From positions 1 to 64,000 of the forward strand of contig SVQZ01000002.1 in the NCBI GenBank assembly GCA_015065105.1: a stretch of DNA of 64,000 nucleotides, in the 5' to 3' direction. Positions 25,691 through 59,430 of this stretch are shown here, one piece after another. The DNA is from Oscillospiraceae bacterium. GTDB taxonomy: Bacteria > Bacillota > Clostridia > Oscillospirales > CAG-272. A program made the position numbers and the translations under genes. The first letter of the stretch is position 1; each line of letters opens with the position of its first letter. The notes under the pieces were generated by a model. That model did not search any database, was not told where the DNA came from, and saw only the letters and a program-made list of their open reading frames with translations.

Positions 25691-25693
25691 TAT

Positions 25694-25756
25694 TGGCGGA
25701 GAAGGAGAGATTCGAACTCTCGAACGGCTTATGACCGTTACACGATTTCCAATCGT
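25694..25756 (-). tRNA. tRNA-Ser(GGA) 3' fragment (anticodon arm through CCA); candidate prophage attL
   Basis: Minus strand CGATTGGAAATCGTGTAACGGTCATAAGCCGTTCGAGAGTTCGAATCTCTCCTTCTCCGCCA: anticodon loop, long variable arm, T-arm GTTCGAATC, CCA; no acceptor/D-arm 5' half upstream. Confidence 0.85.
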
Positions 25757-25788: not shown

Positions 25789-25828
25789 TTTTGTACCCCT
25801 TGAATACCTCGAAGTTTATTTTGTACCC
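25789..25828. promoter_or_regulatory. Candidate integrase arm-type sites (two direct TTTTGTACCC repeats)
   Basis: TTTTGTACCC at 25789-25798 and 25819-25828, spacing 30 bp, between tRNA fragment and int. Confidence 0.45.
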
Positions 25829-26871
25829 GTTTTTTCACTGATAAATGCATCGAGCTTTTCCTTTGCGGTATCGATGTTTCGGCGGTTGAGGTGTGTATAT
25901 TTATCTCTCATTGTGGATATGTTAGAGTGACCGGTGTTGCTCATTGCTGCCATTTCGTCTATATCTGCGTTATAGAGTAATGTGACGTAACCGTGGCGCA
26001 GTTGATGCGGGCGCAACGTTCCATACTTTTGGAACAGAGCGTATGTTTCCCTCTTTCTCATGTATCCTCCCGTTTTGCCGGGAAAAAGAATTCCTTTTCG
26101 TGAGATATACCCCTCGGCTATAAGGCGATCTTTAAGTACCTTTGGGAGCATGATAGTTCTTGTGGAGGTTTCGTTCTTTGTTCCGTCACGGAGAACAGGC
26201 TCCTCCCCGTGCCACTCGATAACTTTGTTGATAGCAATTCTGTCGTGCAGGTAATCTATATCCTCGCAGTTCAGAGCGGCAAGCTCTCCGCGACGAAGCC
26301 CGGTATAATAGTAGAATGCTATAATAAGGGGACAATCTCCCGATTCGATTTTCTCAACGTCATTATCGGATGCAGTTCCATAACTTCCGCTTGTCAGCTT
26401 CTTCGGCAAAGTGATATAGGGCATGGGATCCGAGCCGATGGGTATATATCCTTTGAGAACAGCGTGTTTGAATATTTGATTCAGTACTATAATACGGAGC
26501 TTGACTGTCTGCTTTTTGTATCCCTTCTTTGCATAGAGATCTATTTCCTTTTGAATATCACCGGGGGTAAGCTCTTTTATGTATCGATCCCTGAACCACT
26601 CTATAACATTTTTGGTCGGTGCTTTATAACATTCCTCTGTATAATACTTTACGCTTCCCTCTATACTTGCCTGCCATTCCTCCGCTACGTTCTTGAAGAG
26701 AAGCCCCTGCTCCTCGGTCTCGCGGAAGGCGGCGATCTTCTTGTTTATTGCTTGAATGGACGTACCGTAAAAGTACTTTCGGGTCTTTTTTCCGTTGACC
26801 GTAACGGTAACGGATTTCTTTTTTAACTGTTGATTTTTAGGCATAAAAAATTCTCCTTGATTTTTTTGCAA
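25816..26871 (-). CDS. int: Prophage tyrosine recombinase/integrase
   Basis: YYTGLRRGELAALNCEDI; LRPHQLRHGYVTLLYNADIDEMAAMSNTGHSNISTMRDKYTH (RHRY). Confidence 0.96.
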   Translation of the reverse strand: MQKNQGEFFMPKNQQLKKKSVTVTVNGKKTRKYFYGTSIQAINKKIAAFRETEEQGLLFKNVAEEWQASIEGSVKYYTEECYKAPTKNVIEWFRDRYIKELTPGDIQKEIDLYAKKGYKKQTVKLRIIVLNQIFKHAVLKGYIPIGSDPMPYITLPKKLTSGSYGTASDNDVEKIESGDCPLIIAFYYYTGLRRGELAALNCEDIDYLHDRIAINKVIEWHGEEPVLRDGTKNETSTRTIMLPKVLKDRLIAEGYISRKGILFPGKTGGYMRKRETYALFQKYGTLRPHQLRHGYVTLLYNADIDEMAAMSNTGHSNISTMRDKYTHLNRRNIDTAKEKLDAFISEKTGTK

Positions 26872-39695: not shown

Positions 39696-40259
39696 ATGAG
39701 TGAAAAAAAGATAGATTGGATAGCATTAAAAACCGAATATGCGCGGGAAAAAATTTCTCTTTCCGAATTTGCAAAAAAGCACGATATATCCTACTCTACT
39801 CTTATTAAAAGAGCAAGAAAAGAAAAGTGGGACGAAGAACGGTCAAACTATGGTCAAATCGTGGTTAAGAAAATCTATAACCGAATGTCAAATGCCGATG
39901 CGAAGAAATTTGCTAAGTATGAAAAGGCTTTGGATCGTTTGTTTGAAGCTATATATAAGAGTCTGGACCCCGAGCTTAAGGAACTGTACAAGTACCGTGT
40001 AAGTGTTGACGGACAACCTAACAGTACGATCGAGCTTGATCAGCTGAATACCGGTCATCTTACAGAGTTACTGAAGGTCCTTAAGGAAGTTGAAAGACAG
40101 ATGAGTGCTCTTCGCGGTATTCTTCCAATGGAAAAGCAAAAGGAATATGAGCTTGAACTGAAGCGTATCGAGGCGGAGATGCAAGCGGTTAATGAAGAAA
40201 ACTCTGCAGGATCATCAACGATAAGTATTAAGGGCGGAACGGATGAGTACGCGCAATGA
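39696..40259 (+). CDS. Terminase small subunit
   Basis: N-terminal HTH (DWIALKTEYAREKISLSEFAKKHDISYSTLIKRARKEKWDEER); abuts TerL. Confidence 0.8.
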   Translation: MSEKKIDWIALKTEYAREKISLSEFAKKHDISYSTLIKRARKEKWDEERSNYGQIVVKKIYNRMSNADAKKFAKYEKALDRLFEAIYKSLDPELKELYKYRVSVDGQPNSTIELDQLNTGHLTELLKVLKEVERQMSALRGILPMEKQKEYELELKRIEAEMQAVNEENSAGSSTISIKGGTDEYAQ

Positions 40260-41644
40260 GGAAAAAGAAAAAGAATAATACTCCGGTACACATTTTCATT
40301 GATGAGCCTTCGGAAAAACAAAAATTATTCCTTAAGGCTGATACAAAGCACGTTGGCTTTGGGGGAGCACGTGGCGGCGGTAAGAGTTGGGCGGTGCGAA
40401 CAAAGGCGAAATTGCTTGCAGCGAATTATCCGGGAATCAGGATACTTATAGTTCGTCGTACTTACCCCGAGCTTATGAACAACCATATAAGAATTCTTAA
40501 AAGTGAACTCTTGGGAGCAGCTAAATATAATGACAAGGACAAGTTGTTGACGTTTGTTAATACAAGTACCATAAGTTTTAGCTATTGCGCAAGAGATGCT
40601 GATCTTGACAGGCTGCAGGGCGTTGAATATGATGTTATTTTTCTTGATGAGGCGACACAACTTTCCGAATATCAGATGAGGGCAATAACTGCATGTGTGA
40701 GAGGTGTTAACAGGTTCCCGAAAAGAATTTATTATACATGTAACCCGGGAGGAAAAGGCCATGCCTATATTAAGCGATTATTTATCGACCGTAGATATAA
40801 CGAAACGGAAGATCCCTCTCAGTATAGTTTTATTCAGGCTCTTGTAACCGATAATAAACCCCTTATGCGTGAGAATCCTGATTATATCAAACAGCTTGAT
40901 GCACTTCCTCCAAAGTTACGTGATGCCTGGCGTTATGGTGATTGGAATATATTTGAGGGGCAATTTTTTGAGGAATTTATTGACGATCCCGAACACTACA
41001 GAGACAAGACGTGGACCCATGTTATTGAGCCCTTTGATATTCCGAGCGGGTGGACGATATACCGATCATACGACTTCGGTTATAACCGTCCCTTCTCCTG
41101 CGGTTGGTGGGCGGTTGATTATGACGGTGTTGCATACCGTATTCTTGAACTTTACGGCTGCACGAGCACACCGAATGAGGGCGTTAAGTGGACCCCCGAA
41201 AAGCAGTTTTCGGAGATTGCAAGAATCGAGCGTGAGCATCCTTATCTTGCGGGCCGTAATATATACGGTGTTGCCGACCCCTCGATCTGGGACACCTCAC
41301 GAGGTGACAGCGTTGCCGATACCGCCGCAAGGTACGGCATATATTTTGATCCCGGAGATAATGCAAGAATCCAGGGCTGGATGCAGATGCATTACCGTTT
41401 TGCATTCGACTGCAACGGATTTCCGATGATGTATGTGTTTAATAATTGCAAACATGCTATAAGGACATTGCCGCTTCTTGTTTATTCCGAAACAAATGTA
41501 GAAGATCTTGACACCGAAGGTGAGGATCACATCGCGGACGAGATGAGATACTTCTGTATGTCACGACCTATAAAGCCTGTAAAGAGCGAGCCGATAAGAG
41601 ATATCGGCGATGATCCGCTTGATCAACGTAAATATCACAATTAA
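40256..41644 (+). CDS. Terminase large subunit
   Basis: Walker A-like GFGGARGGGKSWAVRTKAKLL; VIFLDEATQLSEYQ; NPGGKGHAYIKRLF; SYDFGYNRPFSCGWW. Confidence 0.94.
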   Translation: MRKKKKNNTPVHIFIDEPSEKQKLFLKADTKHVGFGGARGGGKSWAVRTKAKLLAANYPGIRILIVRRTYPELMNNHIRILKSELLGAAKYNDKDKLLTFVNTSTISFSYCARDADLDRLQGVEYDVIFLDEATQLSEYQMRAITACVRGVNRFPKRIYYTCNPGGKGHAYIKRLFIDRRYNETEDPSQYSFIQALVTDNKPLMRENPDYIKQLDALPPKLRDAWRYGDWNIFEGQFFEEFIDDPEHYRDKTWTHVIEPFDIPSGWTIYRSYDFGYNRPFSCGWWAVDYDGVAYRILELYGCTSTPNEGVKWTPEKQFSEIARIEREHPYLAGRNIYGVADPSIWDTSRGDSVADTAARYGIYFDPGDNARIQGWMQMHYRFAFDCNGFPMMYVFNNCKHAIRTLPLLVYSETNVEDLDTEGEDHIADEMRYFCMSRPIKPVKSEPIRDIGDDPLDQRKYHN

Positions 41645-41657
41645 CGGAGAGATAAAA

Positions 41658-43640
41658 ATGAGTTTAAAAGATATATTTCATAAAAGAGATAACGAAGAAG
41701 CACCGGCGATGATCGGCTTGGGTACGGGGGAAGGTTTGGCACCGAGATCTGCAGAGGAAATACCGGCAGAGGGGAACGACGAACCGAAAAGATCTTTTTT
41801 TGCAAGAGAGACAAAAAAGCCTATAGGTGCAAATGAAATATCAAAGGCAAATTCTATTCTCGCTAAATATAAAAGCGGCAAGGCAAATCTCGAAAGCAAA
41901 ATAGTTGCAAACGAGGATGAATGGAAACTTCGTGCATGGCGCGGTATCGGCAAGGAGAACAAGGAAACGGTAGAGAAGAATTCCGCCTGGCTCTGGAACT
42001 GCATCGTTTCAAAGCACGCGGACGCTATGGATTCCTATCCCGAGCCTAATATTCGTCCTCGAATGCAGGATGACGAGGAGGAAGCCAAGGTTCTTTCACA
42101 GATAATCCCCGTTATACTTGAGCAGTGCAATTTTGAAAAGGTGTATTCTGACATACAGTGGTATAAGCTGAAGCAGGGTGCGGGTGTGTACGGAGTGTTT
42201 TGGGACTCTACGGTTAACGGTGGGCTTGGAGAAATAAAGTTGAAAAAGGTCGATATACTCAACCTTTTCTGGAAGCCCGGTGTAACCGATATACAGGATT
42301 CACCGAATCTGTTTTACGTGAGTATGGTTGATAAGGAAACACTGGAAGTTGCTTATCCCGATTTCAAATTTAAGACGGGACAGCAGAACGTTAGTCTTAA
42401 GCAATATCGCTATGATGATAATGTTGATACGAGCGATATGGCGATAGTGGTTGACTGGTATTATCATAAATACACCGAAGACGGCCGTAAGATCTTGCAT
42501 CTGTGTAAATACAGCGGAAATCAAGTGCTCTTTGCCACTGAAAATGAACCCGAACTTTTTCCGAATGGTTGGTATGACCATGGTTTATATCCTTTTGTTT
42601 TGGATGTGCTTTTCGGCATCGAGGGAACACCTTGCGGATATAGCTATATCGATATAGGCAAGGGTGTACAGAAGCAGATAGATATACTTGATGATGCTAT
42701 ACTTAAAAACGTTTATGCGGCAGCGCATCCCCGTTTCTTTATACGTGGAGACGGAAAAGTGAATGAAGAGGAATTTGCGGATCCCACAAAAACGTTTATT
42801 CATACCCAGGGCAGCCTTGGAGATGATAGTTTAAAGCAGATCGTTATTACTCCCGTCAGTGATATTGCTATAGCTGTCCTTAACAACAAGATCGAGGAGC
42901 TGAAGGACACCACTACCAACAGGGACGTTGCCAACGGCGCCACGACCTCCGGTGTTACAGCCGCCTCCGGTATAGCGGCAATGCAGGAGGCTGCAGGAAA
43001 GGTTTCGAGAGATACCAACAAAAATTCCTATAACTCATACCGTGAGGTTATTTTCATGATCATAGAGCTTATAAGACAGTTCTATGACATATCAAGATGG
43101 TTCAGAGTTCTTGACGATAAGGGCAAGGATACCTTTATAGCATACAGCAACAAAAAGCTGGTGGCTCAGCCTCAGGAAGCGGGTCTGGGAGGTGAAGATT
43201 CTGGTTACCGTTTGCCGATATTTGATATCGAGGTGCATCCTCAGAAGCGTACTCCATATTCCAAGATGGCACAGAATGAGTTATCGTTACAGTTTTTGAA
43301 AGCGGGGTTCTTTAACCCACAGAATGCTATGGTTGCTCGTGCTGCTCTTGAAATGATGGATTTCGACCACAAGGATGATGTGGTTGACATAATAAACAGC
43401 AATGATCAGATGAGGCAGCAGTACACAATGCTTGTACAACTGGCGCTCGGTATGGCAAGCAAGTATGACCCGAATGTTATTCCTCAGATAGCGCCTATGG
43501 CCCAGGCACTTAATATGGAGGTGCCTAAGGTTACAGAGGCGACTGTGGCAGCAGCGGAATATGACGGTACTCTTGCGGAAGAGGATACGAGAATGCAGAA
43601 TGCAAGACAGAGAACACAGGAAAGTACGCAGGTGCAATAA
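41658..43640 (+). CDS. Portal protein
   Basis: Size and position directly after TerL; WKLRAWRGIGKENKETVEKNSAWLWNCIVSKHADAMDSYPEPNIRPR; ATTSGVTAASGIAAMQEAAGKVSRDTN. Confidence 0.85.
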   Translation: MSLKDIFHKRDNEEAPAMIGLGTGEGLAPRSAEEIPAEGNDEPKRSFFARETKKPIGANEISKANSILAKYKSGKANLESKIVANEDEWKLRAWRGIGKENKETVEKNSAWLWNCIVSKHADAMDSYPEPNIRPRMQDDEEEAKVLSQIIPVILEQCNFEKVYSDIQWYKLKQGAGVYGVFWDSTVNGGLGEIKLKKVDILNLFWKPGVTDIQDSPNLFYVSMVDKETLEVAYPDFKFKTGQQNVSLKQYRYDDNVDTSDMAIVVDWYYHKYTEDGRKILHLCKYSGNQVLFATENEPELFPNGWYDHGLYPFVLDVLFGIEGTPCGYSYIDIGKGVQKQIDILDDAILKNVYAAAHPRFFIRGDGKVNEEEFADPTKTFIHTQGSLGDDSLKQIVITPVSDIAIAVLNNKIEELKDTTTNRDVANGATTSGVTAASGIAAMQEAAGKVSRDTNKNSYNSYREVIFMIIELIRQFYDISRWFRVLDDKGKDTFIAYSNKKLVAQPQEAGLGGEDSGYRLPIFDIEVHPQKRTPYSKMAQNELSLQFLKAGFFNPQNAMVARAALEMMDFDHKDDVVDIINSNDQMRQQYTMLVQLALGMASKYDPNVIPQIAPMAQALNMEVPKVTEATVAAAEYDGTLAEEDTRMQNARQRTQESTQVQ

Positions 43641-43948
43641 TGATAGACGTATTAATAACAAAGGACAGTATAGAGGTTATAGGACACGCAGGAGCGGCAG
43701 AACCGGGAAGGGATCTTGTTTGCGCTGCAGTATCTACAGTGACATTTATGCTTGTTAATCTTATTGATTGTATTCGTGATAAGCTTGAAGAATGTGAAAT
43801 AGAAACTAAAAGCGGATATACGAAGGTGAGGTATGTTGCAAAAGAGGAATACGAAGACATCCTTCGGGCTCAGCTTGAGGTTATAAAAATAGGATTCTAT
43901 ATGGTAGCGAGCCGTTATGAGCAGTTCGTTTCCGTTAAAGATATTTGA
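43640..43948 (+). CDS. Prp-family (ribosomal-processing-type) cysteine protease encoded in the head module
   Basis: VIGHAGAAEPGRDLVCAAVSTVTFMLVNLI: conserved His and Cys with Prp spacing. Confidence 0.88.
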   Translation: MIDVLITKDSIEVIGHAGAAEPGRDLVCAAVSTVTFMLVNLIDCIRDKLEECEIETKSGYTKVRYVAKEEYEDILRAQLEVIKIGFYMVASRYEQFVSVKDI

Positions 43949-43998
43949 CGCGAGGGAAAGACCTCTGAAATACAGACGCGAGGGAAAGACCTCTGAAA
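43947..43998 (+). repeat. Tandem 24-bp repeat GACGCGAGGGAAAGACCTCTGAAA (two copies)
   Basis: 43947-43970 and 43975-43998 identical. Confidence 0.9.
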
Positions 43999-44008
43999 AG
44001 GAGTATAT

Positions 44009-45028
44009 ATGAAATACTTATTTATTATTCAGCAGTTCGCAGAGGGTGCGGCTCCTGCCAGTAGTACCGGAGCAGTGAGTGCGGCTTCTACATCTGCTGT
44101 AGCGTCCGAAGCTGCGGAAAGTACACCCAAGGCAGAGGATAAGGGAAGCGGTTTAGGTAAGCGCAAGGCGAAGGTAAATCCCCTTGGTAACGTTATCTAT
44201 GGCAGAACTCCCGAAAATGTTTCTGGACAGTCTAAGGAAAGTGAAGAAGCTTCCGAGGCTAAGACGACAGAAACAGAAAGTAAAAGAAAGACACTTGCAG
44301 AACTTCTTGAAGCAGATCCGGAACTGAAGAAGGAATATGAAGCAACAGTGAAAACACAGGTAAGTGAGAGAACAAAGGCCCATCTTGACAGACGTGTACA
44401 AGGAAGCAATGCGAGTAAAGCAGAGCTTGATGCTATGCGCCCAATGCTTGATGTTCTTGCACAGCATTATAAGTTGGATCCGAAGGATACATCTGCAATA
44501 GCTAAAGCAGTATCCGAGGACGAAAACTATTTTAAACGTGCCGGATTTGAAAGCGGTACCGATGCTAAGACTGCAAAGAATACATTTGAGCTACTTCGTG
44601 AAAACCGAAGGCTTAAGGATGAAGCAGAGGCAAGACGAAAGTCAGACGAACAGGCAAATAACCGCAAGGTGTTATTTGATTCCTGGAACAAGGAGATTCC
44701 TGAGGTCAAAAAGCTCTATCCTTCCTTTAACATGGACGAGGAGATGAAAAATCCCGAATTCCGCGAGTTTGCTCTTCAGGGCAAGGTAAAGGAAGGCTAT
44801 GAGAAGGTTCACCGTGCCGAGATCGATGCGGCTATGATGAAATATGCTCACGATAAGGCAGAGGAAAAGATAGCAAACAGCGTTGCTGCCGGAAGAGCGA
44901 GACCTGCGGAGGGTGCTATGAGCCGAGATGCTTCACCTGTGTATAAGACGCGTCCTTCTGATCTTACAAAGGAGGACAGAGCAGAAATTAAAAGACGTGT
45001 ACGCAGCGGCGAAAAAATAATTTGGTAG
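44009..45028 (+). CDS. Scaffold-type protein
   Basis: Position before capsid; charged, low-complexity helical sequence; N-terminal IIQQFA motif. Confidence 0.75.
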   Translation: MKYLFIIQQFAEGAAPASSTGAVSAASTSAVASEAAESTPKAEDKGSGLGKRKAKVNPLGNVIYGRTPENVSGQSKESEEASEAKTTETESKRKTLAELLEADPELKKEYEATVKTQVSERTKAHLDRRVQGSNASKAELDAMRPMLDVLAQHYKLDPKDTSAIAKAVSEDENYFKRAGFESGTDAKTAKNTFELLRENRRLKDEAEARRKSDEQANNRKVLFDSWNKEIPEVKKLYPSFNMDEEMKNPEFREFALQGKVKEGYEKVHRAEIDAAMMKYAHDKAEEKIANSVAAGRARPAEGAMSRDASPVYKTRPSDLTKEDRAEIKRRVRSGEKIIW

Positions 45029-45049
45029 CCTCTGCAGAGAGGAGAAAAA

Positions 45050-46336
45050 ATGATTACAAAATATTTATTTAATATTCAGCTTTTTGCTGAAGCAAACGTT
45101 CAGACTACAAACATGGCAGCTGAGGGCAATGATCTTTCGCCTTCCATGAAGGAATATTATGATACAGAGCTTCTTGAGAATGCCAAGGAGGAACTGTTCT
45201 TTAATCAGTTCGGTAAGCTACAGAACCTTCCCGCAAAGAGGGGTAAGAAGATCTCCTGGAGAAAGTTTGACACTCTCGGTCCCGCTCTTGTTCCCCTTGA
45301 AGAGGGTGTTACCCCTGACGGTAATAAGATTAATATGACAAGCGTTGAAGCGGAGATAACCGAGCATGGTGACTACACCACCGTTTCTGATGTTCTCGAC
45401 CTTACCGCGGTTGATGATATTATTCTCGGTTGTACAGAGGAGCACGGCTCGCAGGCCGGTCTTACAATGGATACGCTCACAAGAGATATTGTATGTAATG
45501 AAGCGACGGTAATGTATGCGCCCTCTGTGGTGAATGGTGTTTCCACTCCTACATTAGACAGATTGCTTCTTGATAAAAACTGCAAGATCACTCCTTCACT
45601 TGTCAACAAGGTTGTTACCAGACTTAAGAAGAACAAGGCACCCAAGATCGACGGCAAATATATCTGCATCATTCATCCTTCTGTTTCCGAGGACCTTCGT
45701 GAGTGTGAGGGCTGGATCGAGGCTCATAAGTACGCTGCCGTTACCGAGATTTTCAACGGTGAAATCGGTGAGCTTCACGGTGTGCGCTTTATCGAAACTA
45801 ATCAGGCCCCGGTATATAAGTTTGCGAAGGTTTGGCCTAATTACGGCAGAATGACTATAAGTGCCGTTGATACCGCCAATTCGAGAATCACCTTGAGGAA
45901 TGACAAGGGCGTATCTCCCAATTTCGTTGCAGGTGAATGGATGGACGAAAAGTTCGTTATGATCAACGGAGTACAGTATATTATTACCGAAAGCACAACT
46001 GATCGTCTTAAGCTTACCGATATGGAAGGTAACAATATTACCGCGGCTGTTGGTAATGTAGGTGACGAGGTTCTTATCAATACCGGTACCGCCGAGGGAC
46101 TTGCGGTGTTCGGCTGTATCTTTTTCGGTCGTGATGCTTACGGTAGAGTTGAACTCTCAGGCGGTGCTATGAGAATGATTGTTAAGGCTCTCGGCTCTGC
46201 AGGCTCATCCGATCCTCTTGATCAGAGACAGACAGTGGGCTGGAAGGGCTTCCATGCAGCAGCAGTTCTCTATCCTGAAAGAATCATTCGTCTTGAGGTA
46301 TGCTCAAGCTATAGCGAAGATGACGAACAGAATTAA
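45050..46336 (+). CDS. Major capsid protein, N4-gp56 family
   Basis: DLSPSMKEYYDTELLENAKEELFFNQFGKLQNLPAKRGKKISWRKF...ITEHGDYTTVSDVLDLTAVDDII; RDAYGRVELSGGAMRMIVKALGSAGSSDPLDQRQTVGWKGFHAA. Confidence 0.92.
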   Translation: MITKYLFNIQLFAEANVQTTNMAAEGNDLSPSMKEYYDTELLENAKEELFFNQFGKLQNLPAKRGKKISWRKFDTLGPALVPLEEGVTPDGNKINMTSVEAEITEHGDYTTVSDVLDLTAVDDIILGCTEEHGSQAGLTMDTLTRDIVCNEATVMYAPSVVNGVSTPTLDRLLLDKNCKITPSLVNKVVTRLKKNKAPKIDGKYICIIHPSVSEDLRECEGWIEAHKYAAVTEIFNGEIGELHGVRFIETNQAPVYKFAKVWPNYGRMTISAVDTANSRITLRNDKGVSPNFVAGEWMDEKFVMINGVQYIITESTTDRLKLTDMEGNNITAAVGNVGDEVLINTGTAEGLAVFGCIFFGRDAYGRVELSGGAMRMIVKALGSAGSSDPLDQRQTVGWKGFHAAAVLYPERIIRLEVCSSYSEDDEQN

Positions 46337-50295: not shown

Positions 50296-53200
50296 ATGAG
50301 AAAGATTGAGAATCTTAACAAAGGAAGTAAAACACTCCCTAAAATTGAAAATCTTCGTAAAGATGAAATTGGTGCGTATAAAGTTCAAAAAGAATTTGAA
50401 GGCGATCTTGGCACAGTAAACGAGTATGTAAACTCGATTACTAACGGAAAATATATATCAAGTGATGATTTCGAAAGATACCGTACAGCAGCCCAGCGAT
50501 ATAAAAATAATTACAGAGATTATAAATACTTGAACTCCTCTAAAGAAGAAAGTGATCGATGGATAGATAACATAATAAGTTCATTTGACGCAAATGAAAA
50601 TTATTACTCTCAATTTGCTGACGAGAGCGATTATAACCGTTATACCAAGTATGGTAATATGACATCTGATGAACTTCTTGAGGAATACAAAAAAAGCCGT
50701 ACCGGCATCAGTGACGGAAGTGTATCAAGAGAAAATGCGCAGTGGTTGTATGAGCAATATAAGACCGTTAAAAATGAGGAAGATATTGAAATTCAAAAAT
50801 ACGGTACCAACGGTGAGTTGAGGGATTTGACAAGTTCAGATCTGCTTGATCAATTTTTAGAAGCCGACAAAAGCGGAGACGAAAAAACAGCCGATATATT
50901 ATACAACTCTATAGTCCTTCGGGTATCAAAACCCGAACTTGATACGTGGCTTTCCGAAAAAGAAAAAAGCGGTGAAGATGTTGATTCAGAATATATGCGC
51001 GGTATTTTTCTTGGCACTTCAAGAAACGATTTAAATAATGATTCAACATATATCGGTGATAATGAAACGAAGTTTGTGCTCACAGATGAAAATATAAGCT
51101 ACGAAGACGCGGATACGTTTTTGAATTCTGTGGTAGATAAACAGATAGCAAACGGAAATAACTATAGCGATGCAGAATATGACAGTAAGATGTCTTCAGC
51201 ATATCGAAGCAGAATATTATATGATTATGATATGCTTGAAAAAGAAGTTACAACTATTGACGAGTTTCTAAAAACCCCTTTGGAATACTCACCCGAAAAC
51301 GTTGAACTTCTCAAAAGGTATTATCTTCGTTATGCGCCCGAATACTATTACGATACATCCCGTTTTAGCGGACTTGTACATTCTAACCTAAGCGGGCACG
51401 GATCTATAGCTGATACTATTGATGATGGTCCTGATGCGTTTTATATTGCGTTGCAGGAATTCGAAAAAGCGGTAGAGGGGACTTTATCCCAGTATTACTT
51501 TTTGAAGAATGAAACTCAGGAAAGCAATATAGGACAAGATGTCAGAATGTCTGATGTTGTTACGGATTATGAATCCTATATGGACGAACATAACAGGATA
51601 AGCAAAGCTAAAGAAGCGGAGTATGCCGAGATATTTGAAAAATACGGTTACGATTTTACTTCATATCATGAATACAAGACGAGAAAAAGAAATGAAAAAA
51701 AGGCAGAAGATAGAACAAATAAAATAGAATCTGCCGTAGGTCAAGGAGGAATTAAAGGAATTTGGGCGGGCGCTTGGCGTACCGGAGCGAGTATAGCGAC
51801 TAATCTTTTAAGCGTTTCCTCTTTGTATGGGATAGCAAAAGAGTACGTTCATAACAGCGGTGAGGATGCGCTTGATTACGTTCCTATAGATTTTAATAGT
51901 AATTCTTTCTATATGATGAATTTTACTAATACAATTCGTGGTACGGTAACCAAGGAACTCGAAGAAGAAACAGATTGGACTTTGTTCGGGAAAAATGTTA
52001 CAAGTTTCCTATATCAAACGGGAACCTCGATAGGAGATTTTGTTGCAGCAGCAGCTTTAACTGGAGGTACGGAATGGAGCCTTTTGGTAATGGGTCTTAC
52101 GAGTGCTTCGAATACGGCGGTAGAAACACTTCAAAACGGTGGTACGATTGAGCAAGCTGTAGGTTATGGTATCGTATCGGGTTGTCTTGAAGCATTCTTT
52201 GAAAAATTCTCTTTGGGTAACTTAAAAGCTTTTGATGATATCGGAATAGATACAGCCAAAAAATGGCTTATTAATACATTCAAACAAGGCTTTGTTGAAG
52301 CTACTGAAGAGGGTGCAACAGCTGCAGCCGATTTCTTCGTTGATAATCTTATCAATGGGGAAAATTCTGAATATAACCGCGCGGTAGAAGCATATGTATC
52401 AGAAGGTTATAGCCTTGCTACCGCTCAGTCAATAGCGTTACAGGACAGTTTGGTTGACGGTGTATTTCAGATGTTAGGCGGTGGTATATCGGGTACCGTG
52501 ATGGGCGGTGCTGCTGGCGGTGCTCGTTATGTTTCGGAGCAAAAATATAATTCTTCTCTAATTACTGATGAAGAGCTACAAGACTATAATCCTGACACAC
52601 AAGAAGGCAGGGATAATATTCAGTCACTCGTAGATTCTGTAATCGATTGGAAGTCTTCCGGTTTTGCAGATGTTGGTTCTTCTACACTAAAACTCGCGGA
52701 TAGTATTAATTATAAGCTTGATAATGATGAGGATATATCACTTAAAGAAATAAGACGTTTGGCTACGGCCGTTGTCGGTGCAGCTCCGGCACAGAGCGAA
52801 AAAATGAATTACGATAAGCCTGATGACGAAGATATTTTTGATTCCTACGAGATTCGCAAAAATAACGGAAAAGTCGGCAACGATATGATACCTCAGATCG
52901 TTAATACAGCGCTTGATATGGAGGCAGAGGGAGTATTCAAGGAAGATTCCGAAATTGGTCAACGTGTTGTTGATTTATATTCCCGCTATGTTTCGGGCGG
53001 GGATATATCCCGTGCGGAGATCTCCAAGCTCTATGATGATCTCTATTCTCTACAGAATAACCGTGTTGATATCAGTGGAGACAATATCATAGGCATTGAA
53101 AGCTCGGACGGTGCCGGATCTATGGTGGTCCAGACGAGGGATGGTAACTATGAGCTGAGTGAGCTCAGGATCGAGGGCGAGGAAGGAGAGCTCTTTGCGG

Positions 53201-56200
53201 CAGCATCCGATTACAGCACTGAGGGTGCGAATGCCTTTATAGAAGGGTATGAGGTCGCAAAGGCGGATAATTCTTCTCTTACGGTTGCCGAATACAAGGC
53301 GGCCTTTGATCCCATTTATACACAGAGCTATGAGGGAGTTTCCACCGAGGAGGTGGTTGCGAACAATAGTGACAATATTGACGTGCTTGGTGATCAGGCT
53401 ACAGGACGTGTGCTGGATGCGGCGCAGAGGGATATGCGTGCGGCACAGTACCGCTCAGAGCAGAAGGAGAGTGCGGCGATTAACGGTAAGCATACTGTAA
53501 TGTATAACGGACGGGATGCGGAAATTGTAGGATATGCTTCACGCGGCAATGTGAAAATCAAAGTTGGTGATTCGATTGAAACTGTATCTATGGATCTTAT
53601 TGGTTCTCCTAACGGTGCTACATCATATATGATAGATACAGCCAAGCTCTACAGTTCACAAAAAGCCGAATCGTATATGAATAATTACGATGGTAAATAT
53701 GATCCGGAGATATATACAAGGGGCTTCAGATACTTTTATGATGCCGGTATAGAAGGCAGAAGCTTTGATGAATCTGTTTCAAATATGAAAAAGCTTTATG
53801 GTGATAAACTCGATTATGCTGCTATGAAACGTATTTATGAAAATGCTTCAGCCCATAAGAAAAAGGCAGATTCAAAAAGAGTTAAAAAGTCAGAATATCG
53901 CAGTAAAAAAGGTAATGTACATCTTCATGTGGATTTCTCGACTATGACAGAAAGGCAGAAGGCTTCTCTTAAGGCTATTGAGTTTATATCCGAAGTAACA
54001 GGTGTTGAATTTCATCTGTATGCTTCATATAAAAACAAACAGGGAGAGACGGTATTTAAGGATTTTGACGGTAAGGTTAAAAAAGCGCCCAACGGCTGGT
54101 ATGTAGATTCAACGGTATATCTTGATATAAATGCCGGTAATTCAAACGAGGGGGTTATGCTCTATACCGTAGCTCATGAGCTTACGCATTTCATAAGAGA
54201 GTGGTCTCCCGGTAAATTTGATGTACTTGCAGATTTTCTTGTTGATAAGTATGCTGAAAAGGGTGTAAGCATTAAATCTCTTGTACAGGCACAGATAGAA
54301 AAAGCCGAAGCAAATGACAGAAAGTTGAGCTATGACAAAGCTTTCGAAGAGGTTGTTGCTGATTCTATGGAGACCATGCTTGCGGACGGTGATATATTGG
54401 AGAATCTTTCCGAGCTTGCATCGAACGATCTAACTCTTTTCAAAAAAATAAAAAGCTACTTTAAGCAGCTTTTGGAAAAGATAAGAAAATTGTATGCGGG
54501 CATGAATCCTAATTCCCGTGAGGGACAAATTGTGTCTGAAATGAATGACAGCATCGGAAAGCTTCATGCACTCTTTGAGACGGCACTTGTAGATGCAAGT
54601 GAACACCTTAATAATTCAACAGAAAATAGTGTATATAAAATCACAGATTCGTATCAAGAATATTCAAATCGTGGTTATGGTGGGTTGCGTGGTGTACTTG
54701 CTAAAAAAGGATTAGATGATTTAAGCGTAAAACTCGGAAATTATTTTCCATTATCCGCGTTATTTGATAGTACTATTCGAAATGATAATACCCCGTTATC
54801 TTTAGAAACTGTAACTAAAAATAGAGTCCAGCGAAAAGTTAATAACGGAAGATTTGAAAGCTTTTTCAAAACAGGAAAAGATGCATTTAAAACTGCTTAT
54901 GGAGATACAAAAACAGATGTTAAAATCGAACAACTTGGTATTACTGCTACTCTATATCAAGATATAGTAAGTGAAAGTTTGAGTAAAGAAATGGGCACAG
55001 GACGAGAACAATCTATTATAGATGTTGTTCCTTCACTGAGAGAAATAATTTCGAATAGTGTGTTGATGTCTGTTGAGAAAGTACAGCACACTGATAACAA
55101 ACATACTTCGCTATATGGTTATAGATTATATAATTTTTATAAATATAACGATGGTCATAGAACGAGTATAAATTGTCTTGTAAGTACGGTTATACAAAAT
55201 CTTGATGGAACAGAAGGTCATGTTTTTAAAAATATAGAAAATGTCACCATCGAACAGGGCCTGCCCGGTAATAATACCGATATGTCCCCGACGTCCAATG
55301 GCGACACCTATACTATAGCACAGCTTTATAAATTTGTCAAGAGTCTTGATCGAGATAATGGGGGGATAAAGTATAATTCAAAAAACAAAGAAAAGTATTT
55401 GTTTAATTATACTGAAAGAAATGATAAGGTTCCATATTCCTTCCGTTCCGGTAGAGCGACAAGCCGTGAAATGCTTGTATCGGCACTTGAAAACTTTGTA
55501 CAGAGCCAAGAAGAATTTGAAATTCTTGATGAATACAGAAGAAAGATAATTGAATTGGATAAGGCTGAGGTAAAGCTTGCTAAGCTTCGTAACGAGATAA
55601 ATGAAATGCAGTATGCCAAGGGTAAACGAAGCGAGGCTTTCACGAAAAAGTTGGATGAGCTTCGAAAAAAAGCAAGGAATCTTGCTGACAGTATATCCAA
55701 GCAAGATGAACAGCTTTTAAGATTGGAGAGCACACAGGCCTTAAGAAATCTTTTGAACCGTGAACGTATAAGAGCGGCTACCTCCCAAAAGGAAACGGAT
55801 AAAAGATTGATGAAGGATTATCGTGAGGGACGAAAAAAAACAGCCTTGAAGCAGGATATACTTAAGCAAATCTCGGATATAGACCGTGTTCTTAACCGTG
55901 GCACCAAGGAACGAAATGTAAAGCCTGATCTTGAGAAAAGTGTGGGCTCGGCATTGAAGCTCGGAAAACTTCTCTTTGATGAGTATCTTCGCAATTCTGA
56001 TATTGTTCTTAACGGAGTTAAATCCGTTACTGCAAAGGAAGCTGAGCTCCTTTCCGAGTATAAAGAGCTGCTTGAACAGAGAGAGTATGCAAAGGAATAC
56101 AGAAAGGAAGAGGTAAAGTCTATAGAACGAAATGCGGATTTGAGCTATTCGGAAAAGCAAAAGAAGATCGATGAGCTTGACTCGAGTATTAAGGAAAAAC

Positions 56201-59200
56201 GCAGACAGATCGACCTTAAGATCAAGGAGCTTGATGGTAAGCTCGCTGAGGTATTTGAACGTGAAAGAAACAGCTTGGAAAACACAAATGTTTCTGCCGC
56301 TATAGACGAGCTGTCTTCTGCTTATAAAAAATTGATCGATTCAGAGGATGAATATATAAAGCAAGCCTATTCGGAAGTTGTAAGTAATTTGATAGACGAT
56401 CTTAAGCAAAGCCTTGGAAATGTAAAACGAGGCGAACTGACCTTATATCAACTTGAAAAGGTTAAAAAGGTGTTCAGCGCCGTGAAGCATACTATCAGCA
56501 CCGCAAATAAGATATTCAGGCAGGGCAAAACAGAAGAATTACAGACGGTGGTTGATAGGGTACAGAGTGAAATCTTGAAAAATGAAAAACAAAGAGCGGA
56601 TCCTACAGTTGCCGGAGCGGCGATAAGTGATGCTTATAATGATTTCAAGGTTAATGAAATGAAACCGGTATATTTCTTTGAATATCTCGGTTCTCAAAAA
56701 TATCTTGAACTATACAAGGATGCTGCACATGCTGACGGTGTATGGGCTAAGGATCTTGACGAGGTGAAGACATTTATTCAAGAAACAAGGAAAAAGTACC
56801 ACTATACTTCTTGGGATTGGAAAAGAGCTCGGACGTTTACCTTGGAGGACGGACGAAAATTTACAGCAACACTCGGTGAAATATTAAGCATATATGCTTA
56901 TTCAAGAAGAACGCAAGCTATAGATCACATGGCAATCGGCGGTGTCCAACATGGTAAGGGTACAAAATACAAGCCTGGTAAAAAACGTTTTGAACGATTC
57001 AGAACACACTTGGAGGGAGAGAAACCTTATAATTTAGGTTTTAGTGTTATTAACGAAATTATAAATTCACTTAATAAAGAACAAAGGGCGTATGTTGAGT
57101 CTGTTCAAAAGTACATGTCTGACTTCGGTAAAAAAGGTAATGAAATTTCAAGAGAACTATATGGAATCGATCTTTTTACCGAGAAATACTATATGCCGAT
57201 ACAATCGGTTAAAGAATACCTTGATAATGTAAGACAAACATTACAAAAGACACCTACTACGGTTTCCCTTAAAAATATGGGAGCCGCAAAGCCTACTACC
57301 CCGAATGCAAATAATCCTATGATATTAAGAGCATTTGATGATGTATGTGTCGAGCACCTTAACAGCATGGCTACATATCATGCGTATGTCTTACCGATAG
57401 AAAACTTGCAGAGGGTTTATAACAATGTGTCAAAAGAAGGAGGGTATAGTTCTACAAGGGAGATTATAGAACGTGTACTGGGTAGCTCTGCGGATACATA
57501 TTTGCAGAATTATATAACTGATCTAAACGGAGGTCCACAAGCTAAGGGCATCATAAGTCCCCTTATGAGTTTATTTTCAAAAAGCATGAAAGTAGCGGTT
57601 GCGAATAGCTTATCTGTAGCTATTCAGCAGCCTACGGCAATAATACGTGCTATGGATATGATAAATCCTTTGCACTTCAGACCTATTTACGATCACGACA
57701 ATCATTTTAATATATCTAAAACTTATGCAGAAATGAGAAAATATGCACCTATTACCATAGTTAAGGAAATAGGCGGTCATGAAATAGGATATTCAAAAAG
57801 TGCTTATGATTATGTTGGTACCAACGAATATGGCAGGGCCGGTGTGAGAGGATTCTTTACGGATGCACAATACAGGAAAACAAAGCTTGATAATGCATCG
57901 ATGAAGTTTCCTGAGCTTATGGATAAGTTCGGTTGGTGTGCGATATGGGCTGCAGTTAAAAATGAAATCCGTGCATCTGAAAAATATGCAGAGGGTTCCA
58001 AAGAGTTTTTTGAAGCTTGTGATATAAGGTTTACCGATGTAATAATGTATACACAGGTTTACGATTCTGTTAATTCCCGAAGCGGTTATATGAGGTCTAA
58101 GAGTGACCTTGTGAAATTCTCGACCTCCTTCAAAGGCGAACCGACCACAACTGTTAACATGGCATATAATGCTATATTAAAAGTAGCGCGTACTGAGGGA
58201 AGGAGCGAAAAAGCAAAGGCTACGGCGAAAGCATTTAAAACTGTTGGTATAGTAACTCTCAGCGTTCTCGCTGGTGCTGCGGCGTATTCTATAGTTGCGG
58301 CGCTAAGAGACGATGACGATGATGAGACGTATGCTAAAAAATACGGACAAGCCTTAAAATCAAGGTTACTATCAGATATGAATCCTTTGAATATGCTTCC
58401 GTTTACAAGTGACGTGATGTCGTTAATAGACGGTTGGGATGTTGAACGTCCGGATATGACGTTGCTTTCTGAATTTATCGGTGATATTCGAAAATTTTCC
58501 AAAGCTGTAGCAGAGGGTGATTTGGACGAATTGACTATCGATGATTATGCTGACTATATAGGAGACCTTTCTAACATTTTAGGATTAGGTCTGAAAAACT
58601 TCTATAGGGATGCCAAAGCATTAACTTATAACGTTTATAAACGACTTACCGATGAAGAGAAGTACGATTCTTTTGGAGATTTCTTTGATGAAATCGCAGA
58701 GGGATTTTCTAAGGGAACAGATGAAATGAGCGAAAAAGATATTGTCCTTGGCTCATATTTACTTTATAAAGAAGGAGATCGCGGAGCGATGCATGAAACA
58801 CTTGACGACCTCCGAGAGATAATAAGAAAGGATGTGTTGGAGAAATACCCGAACATATCTAAAAAAGGCCTTGAAGCTGAAATTGAATCTATACTTGCAT
58901 CGAAAATCAAGAGCTCGTTAAGAGAGGATTTTCTTGACGCCTATGAAGAGGGGGATCTTAAAGAAGCTAAAAGAATCCAAAATTATCTCGATGCTACCGA
59001 ATTATACGATGATACACAGACGATCGTTGATGATTGGATAGACGGTAAGGAAGAAAACGAAAACGAGGACTGGTATCAGACAAAGGACGGCAAATTCTAT
59101 ATGGTGGAAGAAGCATATACCGAAGGAGATCAGGACAAGATGACCGAAATTGTTGACGGTCTTATTGAGGAAAAAGCGGACACACAGCTTGAAGAATATC

Positions 59201-59430
59201 CCAACAAGCCTATGGGTCAGGTGGAAAAGGAGGCTCGTAGCAGTGTAAGGAGTTCGTTCACGAGCAGATACAAGAAACCATATCTTAAGGCCTATGAGGA
59301 TGGTGACGGAGCTGAGACGAAGAGAATTCTTGCTCTTCTTGAAATGACCGGTCTTTATGACGATGTTGAAGCGAAGGCTCAAGACTGGATAGAAGCATAC
59401 GAAGAAAAGAAACTCCTTAATGGAGAATAA
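50296..59430 (+). CDS. Giant (3044 aa) polyvalent/ejection-type phage protein with zincin metallopeptidase motif
   Basis: Hydrophobic Gly-rich segments, HELTH...EEVVADSMETML metallopeptidase signature, coiled coils, C-terminal duplicated ~90-aa module. Confidence 0.8.
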   Translation: MRKIENLNKGSKTLPKIENLRKDEIGAYKVQKEFEGDLGTVNEYVNSITNGKYISSDDFERYRTAAQRYKNNYRDYKYLNSSKEESDRWIDNIISSFDANENYYSQFADESDYNRYTKYGNMTSDELLEEYKKSRTGISDGSVSRENAQWLYEQYKTVKNEEDIEIQKYGTNGELRDLTSSDLLDQFLEADKSGDEKTADILYNSIVLRVSKPELDTWLSEKEKSGEDVDSEYMRGIFLGTSRNDLNNDSTYIGDNETKFVLTDENISYEDADTFLNSVVDKQIANGNNYSDAEYDSKMSSAYRSRILYDYDMLEKEVTTIDEFLKTPLEYSPENVELLKRYYLRYAPEYYYDTSRFSGLVHSNLSGHGSIADTIDDGPDAFYIALQEFEKAVEGTLSQYYFLKNETQESNIGQDVRMSDVVTDYESYMDEHNRISKAKEAEYAEIFEKYGYDFTSYHEYKTRKRNEKKAEDRTNKIESAVGQGGIKGIWAGAWRTGASIATNLLSVSSLYGIAKEYVHNSGEDALDYVPIDFNSNSFYMMNFTNTIRGTVTKELEEETDWTLFGKNVTSFLYQTGTSIGDFVAAAALTGGTEWSLLVMGLTSASNTAVETLQNGGTIEQAVGYGIVSGCLEAFFEKFSLGNLKAFDDIGIDTAKKWLINTFKQGFVEATEEGATAAADFFVDNLINGENSEYNRAVEAYVSEGYSLATAQSIALQDSLVDGVFQMLGGGISGTVMGGAAGGARYVSEQKYNSSLITDEELQDYNPDTQEGRDNIQSLVDSVIDWKSSGFADVGSSTLKLADSINYKLDNDEDISLKEIRRLATAVVGAAPAQSEKMNYDKPDDEDIFDSYEIRKNNGKVGNDMIPQIVNTALDMEAEGVFKEDSEIGQRVVDLYSRYVSGGDISRAEISKLYDDLYSLQNNRVDISGDNIIGIESSDGAGSMVVQTRDGNYELSELRIEGEEGELFAAASDYSTEGANAFIEGYEVAKADNSSLTVAEYKAAFDPIYTQSYEGVSTEEVVANNSDNIDVLGDQATGRVLDAAQRDMRAAQYRSEQKESAAINGKHTVMYNGRDAEIVGYASRGNVKIKVGDSIETVSMDLIGSPNGATSYMIDTAKLYSSQKAESYMNNYDGKYDPEIYTRGFRYFYDAGIEGRSFDESVSNMKKLYGDKLDYAAMKRIYENASAHKKKADSKRVKKSEYRSKKGNVHLHVDFSTMTERQKASLKAIEFISEVTGVEFHLYASYKNKQGETVFKDFDGKVKKAPNGWYVDSTVYLDINAGNSNEGVMLYTVAHELTHFIREWSPGKFDVLADFLVDKYAEKGVSIKSLVQAQIEKAEANDRKLSYDKAFEEVVADSMETMLADGDILENLSELASNDLTLFKKIKSYFKQLLEKIRKLYAGMNPNSREGQIVSEMNDSIGKLHALFETALVDASEHLNNSTENSVYKITDSYQEYSNRGYGGLRGVLAKKGLDDLSVKLGNYFPLSALFDSTIRNDNTPLSLETVTKNRVQRKVNNGRFESFFKTGKDAFKTAYGDTKTDVKIEQLGITATLYQDIVSESLSKEMGTGREQSIIDVVPSLREIISNSVLMSVEKVQHTDNKHTSLYGYRLYNFYKYNDGHRTSINCLVSTVIQNLDGTEGHVFKNIENVTIEQGLPGNNTDMSPTSNGDTYTIAQLYKFVKSLDRDNGGIKYNSKNKEKYLFNYTERNDKVPYSFRSGRATSREMLVSALENFVQSQEEFEILDEYRRKIIELDKAEVKLAKLRNEINEMQYAKGKRSEAFTKKLDELRKKARNLADSISKQDEQLLRLESTQALRNLLNRERIRAATSQKETDKRLMKDYREGRKKTALKQDILKQISDIDRVLNRGTKERNVKPDLEKSVGSALKLGKLLFDEYLRNSDIVLNGVKSVTAKEAELLSEYKELLEQREYAKEYRKEEVKSIERNADLSYSEKQKKIDELDSSIKEKRRQIDLKIKELDGKLAEVFERERNSLENTNVSAAIDELSSAYKKLIDSEDEYIKQAYSEVVSNLIDDLKQSLGNVKRGELTLYQLEKVKKVFSAVKHTISTANKIFRQGKTEELQTVVDRVQSEILKNEKQRADPTVAGAAISDAYNDFKVNEMKPVYFFEYLGSQKYLELYKDAAHADGVWAKDLDEVKTFIQETRKKYHYTSWDWKRARTFTLEDGRKFTATLGEILSIYAYSRRTQAIDHMAIGGVQHGKGTKYKPGKKRFERFRTHLEGEKPYNLGFSVINEIINSLNKEQRAYVESVQKYMSDFGKKGNEISRELYGIDLFTEKYYMPIQSVKEYLDNVRQTLQKTPTTVSLKNMGAAKPTTPNANNPMILRAFDDVCVEHLNSMATYHAYVLPIENLQRVYNNVSKEGGYSSTREIIERVLGSSADTYLQNYITDLNGGPQAKGIISPLMSLFSKSMKVAVANSLSVAIQQPTAIIRAMDMINPLHFRPIYDHDNHFNISKTYAEMRKYAPITIVKEIGGHEIGYSKSAYDYVGTNEYGRAGVRGFFTDAQYRKTKLDNASMKFPELMDKFGWCAIWAAVKNEIRASEKYAEGSKEFFEACDIRFTDVIMYTQVYDSVNSRSGYMRSKSDLVKFSTSFKGEPTTTVNMAYNAILKVARTEGRSEKAKATAKAFKTVGIVTLSVLAGAAAYSIVAALRDDDDDETYAKKYGQALKSRLLSDMNPLNMLPFTSDVMSLIDGWDVERPDMTLLSEFIGDIRKFSKAVAEGDLDELTIDDYADYIGDLSNILGLGLKNFYRDAKALTYNVYKRLTDEEKYDSFGDFFDEIAEGFSKGTDEMSEKDIVLGSYLLYKEGDRGAMHETLDDLREIIRKDVLEKYPNISKKGLEAEIESILASKIKSSLREDFLDAYEEGDLKEAKRIQNYLDATELYDDTQTIVDDWIDGKEENENEDWYQTKDGKFYMVEEAYTEGDQDKMTEIVDGLIEEKADTQLEEYPNKPMGQVEKEARSSVRSSFTSRYKKPYLKAYEDGDGAETKRILALLEMTGLYDDVEAKAQDWIEAYEEKKLLNGE
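58763..59403 (+). repeat. Two diverged ~90-aa repeats at the C-terminus of the giant protein
   Basis: YKEGDRGAMHETLDDL...LREDFLDAYEEGDLKEAKRIQNYLDATELYDDTQTIVDDWID versus YTEGDQDKMTEIVDGL...YKKPYLKAYEDGDGAETKRILALLEMTGLYDDVEAKAQDWIEA. Confidence 0.85.

Follow-up and report, generated by a model that had tools for sequence, protein, structure and literature searches.

The Prp cysteine protease encoded between the portal and scaffold genes of a prophage in a gut-dwelling Oscillospiraceae bacterium is quite probably dedicated to the phage, i.e., it would trim the phage's own scaffold and capsid proteins at a phage-specific motif, independently of the host Prp and with host ribosomal protein L27 probably being spared. 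The stretch analysed comprises positions 1 to 64,000 (forward strand) of contig SVQZ01000002.1 from Oscillospiraceae bacterium GCA_015065105.1, and this whole stretch of 64,000 nucleotides is referred to as the window. The suggested mechanism assumes that during head assembly the phage enzyme makes use of the Prp cysteine-histidine mechanism, whereby scaffold residues 1-10 (cut at F10|A11, the bar marking the scissile bond) and capsid residues 1-12 (cut at F12|A13) would be removed. Here, the enzyme is assumed to recognise a variant of the L27 motif that is specific to the phage, and as a consequence it would neither depend on the host Prp nor, probably, act on host L27.

The prophage has a length of 38,753 bp (~38.75 kb), is bounded by two exact 64-bp repeats at a tRNA-Ser gene and appears intact. 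The first repeat copy (attL, 25693..25756) overlaps the tRNA-Ser gene, and the second copy (attR, contig positions 64446-64509) is located just beyond the window end. A tyrosine integrase (25816-26871, minus strand; PF00589) and an S24-type repressor are encoded. A viral contig (L016) whose sequence is identical to that of the prophage was not counted as independent proof of a virion, as its ends are about the same and it may derive from the same sample. The head genes reside on the plus strand, starting with a putative small terminase (39696..40259), which was assigned by position only, with no clear family match, followed by the large terminase (40256..41644; PF03237, E 7.6e-11; phrog_979) and a P22-like portal (41610..43640; PF16510, E 5.1e-23). 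The portal stop codon and the start codon of the 102-aa Prp (43640..43948) overlap by one base (TAATG). Downstream, the putative scaffold gene (44009..45028), predicted to encode a Prp substrate, owes its assignment to its size and its position between Prp and capsid, the matching phrog_13908 carrying no named function. The second predicted substrate, encoded at 45050..46336, is solidly identified as a major capsid protein of the N4-gp56 family (TIGR04387, E 1.9e-69, 234 bits as compared to a cut-off of 60; phrog_1357). Within the gap between the Prp and scaffold genes (window 43946-43999), a 24-bp sequence that includes a small inverted repeat (GAGG...CCTC) is present in two nearly tandem copies. 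Further downstream, a 3044-aa phage protein (window 50296-59430) for which no Pfam match was obtained is very large and, judging by its position, may be located internally or be ejected.

The assignment of the 102-aa product to Prp, which an earlier reading of the sequence only had proposed, was confirmed by matches to PF04327 Peptidase_Prp (E 1.8e-14, 54.2 bits at a Pfam cut-off of 27) and to phrog_4478 'peptidase' (E 2.7e-17), while the NCBIfam Prp equivalog cut-offs, which were built for host subgroups, were not reached (best 47 of 135). The histidine and cysteine whose misalignment would have indicated an inactive phage protein were found in place, with H16 and C28 aligning with the catalytic pair H22 and C34 of the Staphylococcus aureus enzyme (SaPrp). 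Likewise, G15, G23, D25 and V27 correspond to SaPrp G21, G29, D31 and V33, the essential SaPrp residues G21, D31 and S38 are matched by G15, D25 and S32, and S32 and F36 are the counterparts of S38 and F42, both of which are in contact with the substrate in structure 7KLD. Among 52 phage Prps, G15, H16, G23, D25, V27 and C28 were found to be invariant. The AlphaFold (AF2) model of the phage protein (pLDDT 93.4) superimposes on 7kld with a TM score of 0.79, hence a Prp fold is predicted.

The closest known system is that of S. aureus Prp (MEROPS C108) and phage 80alpha, which is alike in protease family, fold, catalytic residues and the presence of an F|A motif on both scaffold and capsid. However, in the 80alpha system the protease is that of the host, whereas here it is encoded by the phage and the sites are unlike that of host L27; host-dependent processing of the 80alpha type presupposes a phage lacking a Prp of its own, while this phage possesses one. 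The capsid protease of phage Cp-1 (MEROPS clan CR) is a relative of Prp and removes an N-terminal part of ~40 residues from the capsid protein (PMC9405229), as compared to the 10-12 residues predicted to be removed here. Further structural matches to the phage Prp are a predicted protein of Streptococcus phage SOCP (E 1.2e-4) and proteins of metagenomic phages automatically annotated as 'YsxB-like protein' or 'Cysteine protease', for which the records seen state no link to a substrate.

Both presumed substrates begin with an L27-like motif, as the sequence-only reading had recognised. The scaffold N-terminus reads MKYLFIIQQFAEGAAP and that of the capsid protein MITKYLFNIQLFAEANVQ. Since such a motif is carried within the first 50 residues by only 7 of 677 background ORFs (1%), its occurrence on both proteins is not attributed to chance. 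The position of the cut had to be corrected: it had been placed after FA, i.e., one residue too far downstream, as Prp cleaves 80alpha capsid and scaffold proteins as well as S. aureus L27 between F and A (PMC5744158, PMC9405229). Following this F|A rule (PMC5744158), the extensions predicted to be removed are MKYLFIIQQF (44009..44038, plus strand; F10|A11) from the scaffold and MITKYLFNIQLF (45050..45085, plus strand; F12|A13) from the capsid protein, and the mature proteins are predicted to start with AEGAAP and AEANVQ, respectively.

Three Prps were identified in the genome, namely a host copy, the prophage copy and a copy in a second phage-like module. The host gene is located between those of L21 and L27 (rplU-rpmA), which is the location of a host L27-processing Prp (ysxB), whereas the phage gene is located between portal and scaffold. 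Host L27 starts with MIMLRIGLQFF|AHKK. A comparison of its site (RIGLQFF|AHKK) with those of scaffold (IIQQF|AEG) and capsid (NIQLF|AEA) revealed a common core of P3 Q, P1 F and P1' A, with P5, P4 and P2 all being different, which suggests separate specificities of phage and host Prp. This bears on the proposal, also raised by the sequence-only reading, that the phage enzyme processes host L27 as well or even mainly, thereby supporting or altering ribosomes during infection. Membership of the same enzyme family and the common site core would allow for such an activity; the differences at P5, P4 and P2 argue mildly against it, the phage gene adjoins head genes with nothing ribosomal nearby, and Prp enzymes can be species-specific, as documented for Clostridioides difficile Prp, which is inactive towards a peptide of S. 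aureus L27 (PMC9405229). As Prp-bearing phages moreover diverge from host L27, action on L27 found no support and is considered highly improbable. The second module is located ~63 kb away and shows identical gene order, with FRLQYF|A on its scaffold and FDIQAF|A on its capsid protein. It is shorter (G000 contig C45, ~103.8-112.6 kb; L008 1-8614), consisting of terminase, portal, Prp, scaffold and capsid genes without the giant internal protein, is followed by ffh-like and groEL-like genes, and is perhaps a remnant or a satellite.

The pairing of Prp with motif-bearing neighbours was found to recur among phages. A scan of viral contigs yielded 231 Prp relatives, 80 of which were kept, while a genome scan with a second Prp alignment gave mostly host Prps. 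Among all those phage Prp loci for which the downstream sequence extends over no less than 1.8 kb (n=143), at least one motif-bearing gene was identified downstream in 119, at least two in 93 and at least three in 26, the background being 1%. When the first and second motif gene within a phage were compared, the same P2 residue was present in 36 of 47 lineages, as compared to 22.4 expected (p ~5e-5; Prps clustered at 60%), and in 15 of 23 as compared to 8.4 at the coarser 45% clustering. This shared P2 flavour on scaffold and capsid, i.e., on two different proteins, points to one common enzyme, which probably cuts both. The third motif gene sometimes encodes a tail protein, as in Dorea phage DO134P1 (OP172779), where an unannotated Prp ORF (L011 10001-10282) was noticed beside motif-bearing scaffold, capsid and tail genes; a tail protein of phi13 bears the same motif (PMC5744158). 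Some Prp-bearing relatives (L288-L290) possess a scaffold without the motif, and in the Prp-less relatives L101, L150, L014 and L015 the proteins begin at or near the mature end. In a Prp tree, phage and host labels were mostly separate (4 changes as compared to 39.6 when shuffled), the 117 alignment columns being too short to derive the direction of transfer.

The motif might alternatively be regarded as a structural or chaperone signal to which the neighbouring Prp binds instead of cutting it. In 80alpha, cleavage of the capsid protein is dispensable, and for the scaffold the intact N-terminus is required but its cleavage is not (PMC5744158); Prp may furthermore act as a chaperone for L27 (PMC9405229). 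Yet, the catalytic residues are all conserved in the phage Prp and the motif occurs on different kinds of proteins, those of the tail included, so that binding in place of cleavage is hardly to be expected. Proteolytic trimming by the phage Prp is hence preferred, whereby the dispensability of capsid cleavage in 80alpha implies that cleavage need not matter in this phage.

Prophage loci and L27 genes were compared from the same genomes, N4-gp56 capsid genes being carried by 88 of 298 genomes of the window's family and by 55 of 392 of the class. In Prp-bearing phages 103 of 105 capsids possess the motif, a generous count, as the regular expression for divergent motifs was widened after variants had been seen, and the two negatives resemble motif variants; in Prp-less phages 17 capsids possess it and 34 do not. 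A strict expression identified the motif in 37 of 52 capsids of the host-linked set. Locus L308, which has no clear portal, was excluded from the contingency counts. Likewise, L300, L303, L338 and L340 (genus g9) were dropped as Prp-less motif bearers, as host genes lie upstream and the portal is absent; their motif-bearing scaffold and capsid genes directly follow host-type genes and are read as remnants or as reuse of a capsid. On the capsid tree, the Prp status changes ~13 times. Out of 10 independent pairs, Prp and motif change alike in 4.6 and oppositely in 0.1, with the motif unchanged in 5.3 (median p 0.125, not significant alone), hence the link is consistent in direction, though phylogeny alone does not prove it.

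Agreement with host L27 over P5, P4 and P2 amounts to 1.50 residues without and 0.82 with Prp (Mann-Whitney p 0.004, kinship uncorrected). In the window's family, F at P2 is absent from every recognisable motif of a Prp-bearing phage, whereas host L27 there has F in 48 cases and Y in one. The Prp-less phages L309, L314, L315 and L320 on hosts with a long L27 carry LQFF|A on the scaffold, as does host L27, and L308 carries LQFF|G. In genome G157, the Prp-less L336 possesses the host-type LSLQFF|A on its scaffold and the near copy RIGYQFF|A on its capsid protein under a host L27 of RLGLQFF|A, while in the same host the capsid protein of a Prp-bearing phage starts with MKKFSLKLF|GAGD. Such Prp-less phages presumably copy the host L27 motif to borrow the host Prp, these mimics representing about two lineages only in the window's family (genus g41 and L336). 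Capsids of Prp-less phages on long-L27 hosts comprise 7 with a strict motif, 8 with a loose one and 16 with none, 4 of the latter 16 being accompanied by a host-like motif on the scaffold instead. The Prp-less f56 phages carry LNIQHF|A or LNIQRF|A, where the host L27 reads LNIQLF|A, i.e., P5 and P4 are host-like while P2 is different. As a consequence, P2 alone cannot separate host-type from phage-type sites, and F at P2 as a mark of host-Prp use was given up in general and retained for the window's family only. Divergent ends were further seen on Prp-less capsids, with LTLF|D in f23 (L423, L425-L428) and LSKF|G-like ends in f35 (L403, L409, L413, L417); relics or sites for another enzyme are candidate readings of both. 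In 17 genomes of families with a short L27, in most of which L27 was read to start with MAHKK, no PF04327 match was obtained anywhere, and their prophages showed no Prp, no strict motif in 16 capsids and one loose match. In G049, G171, G203, G002, G069 and G386, capsid and L27 genes were observed to share a contig at a distance of 10-48 kb, which may be chance.

These comparisons allow weighing whether the host Prp cuts the phage proteins, as in 80alpha, with the phage copy being redundant or raising enzyme supply during lytic growth. Such a division of labour would be consistent with the host Prp gene between L21 and L27, with the cleavage of 80alpha proteins by host Prp, a site bearing H in the P2 position included (PMC5744158, PMC9405229), and with the f56 prophages, whose capsids retain the motif while the module encodes no Prp. 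It is nevertheless judged quite unlikely, as Prp-bearing phages differ from host L27 at P5 and P2 (P5 matching in 1 of 40, as compared to 7 of 12 Prp-less phages, kinship uncorrected) and as the motif is nearly always kept in Prp-bearing phages, whereas it is often missing in Prp-less ones. The findings support a phage-autonomous maturation protease as the simplest reading. That the phage carries its own Prp beside two likely substrates, as first read from the sequence, has stood; that head maturation may not depend on the host enzyme is reasonable to assume, because the phage has its own Prp, the pairing is recurrent and the presence of the motif follows that of Prp.

Prp itself, its use by phages and phage genes automatically annotated as Prp-like were already known. 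In the literature searched, no account was found of Prps that phages encode alongside matched substrates, nor of how such phages contrast with relatives mimicking the host, earlier reports being possible. In that literature, phage use of Prp was described as host-dependent; here, many phages carry their own Prp together with matched substrates, while in relatives lacking Prp the host signal is imitated, a divergent one is kept or none is present. Phage Prps, being naturally paired with their substrates, thus lend themselves to studies of Prp specificity, which is of relevance because the host Prp is an antibiotic target. It is conceivable, though unlikely, that the essential Firmicute L27-Prp pair began as a phage head-maturation protease with its signal and was captured by the host ribosome. 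Some phages would subsequently have retained an enzyme and signal of their own, and others would have come to mimic the host signal so as to exploit the domesticated enzyme again. With the set of phage Prps and substrates, the origin of the L27 extension becomes testable.
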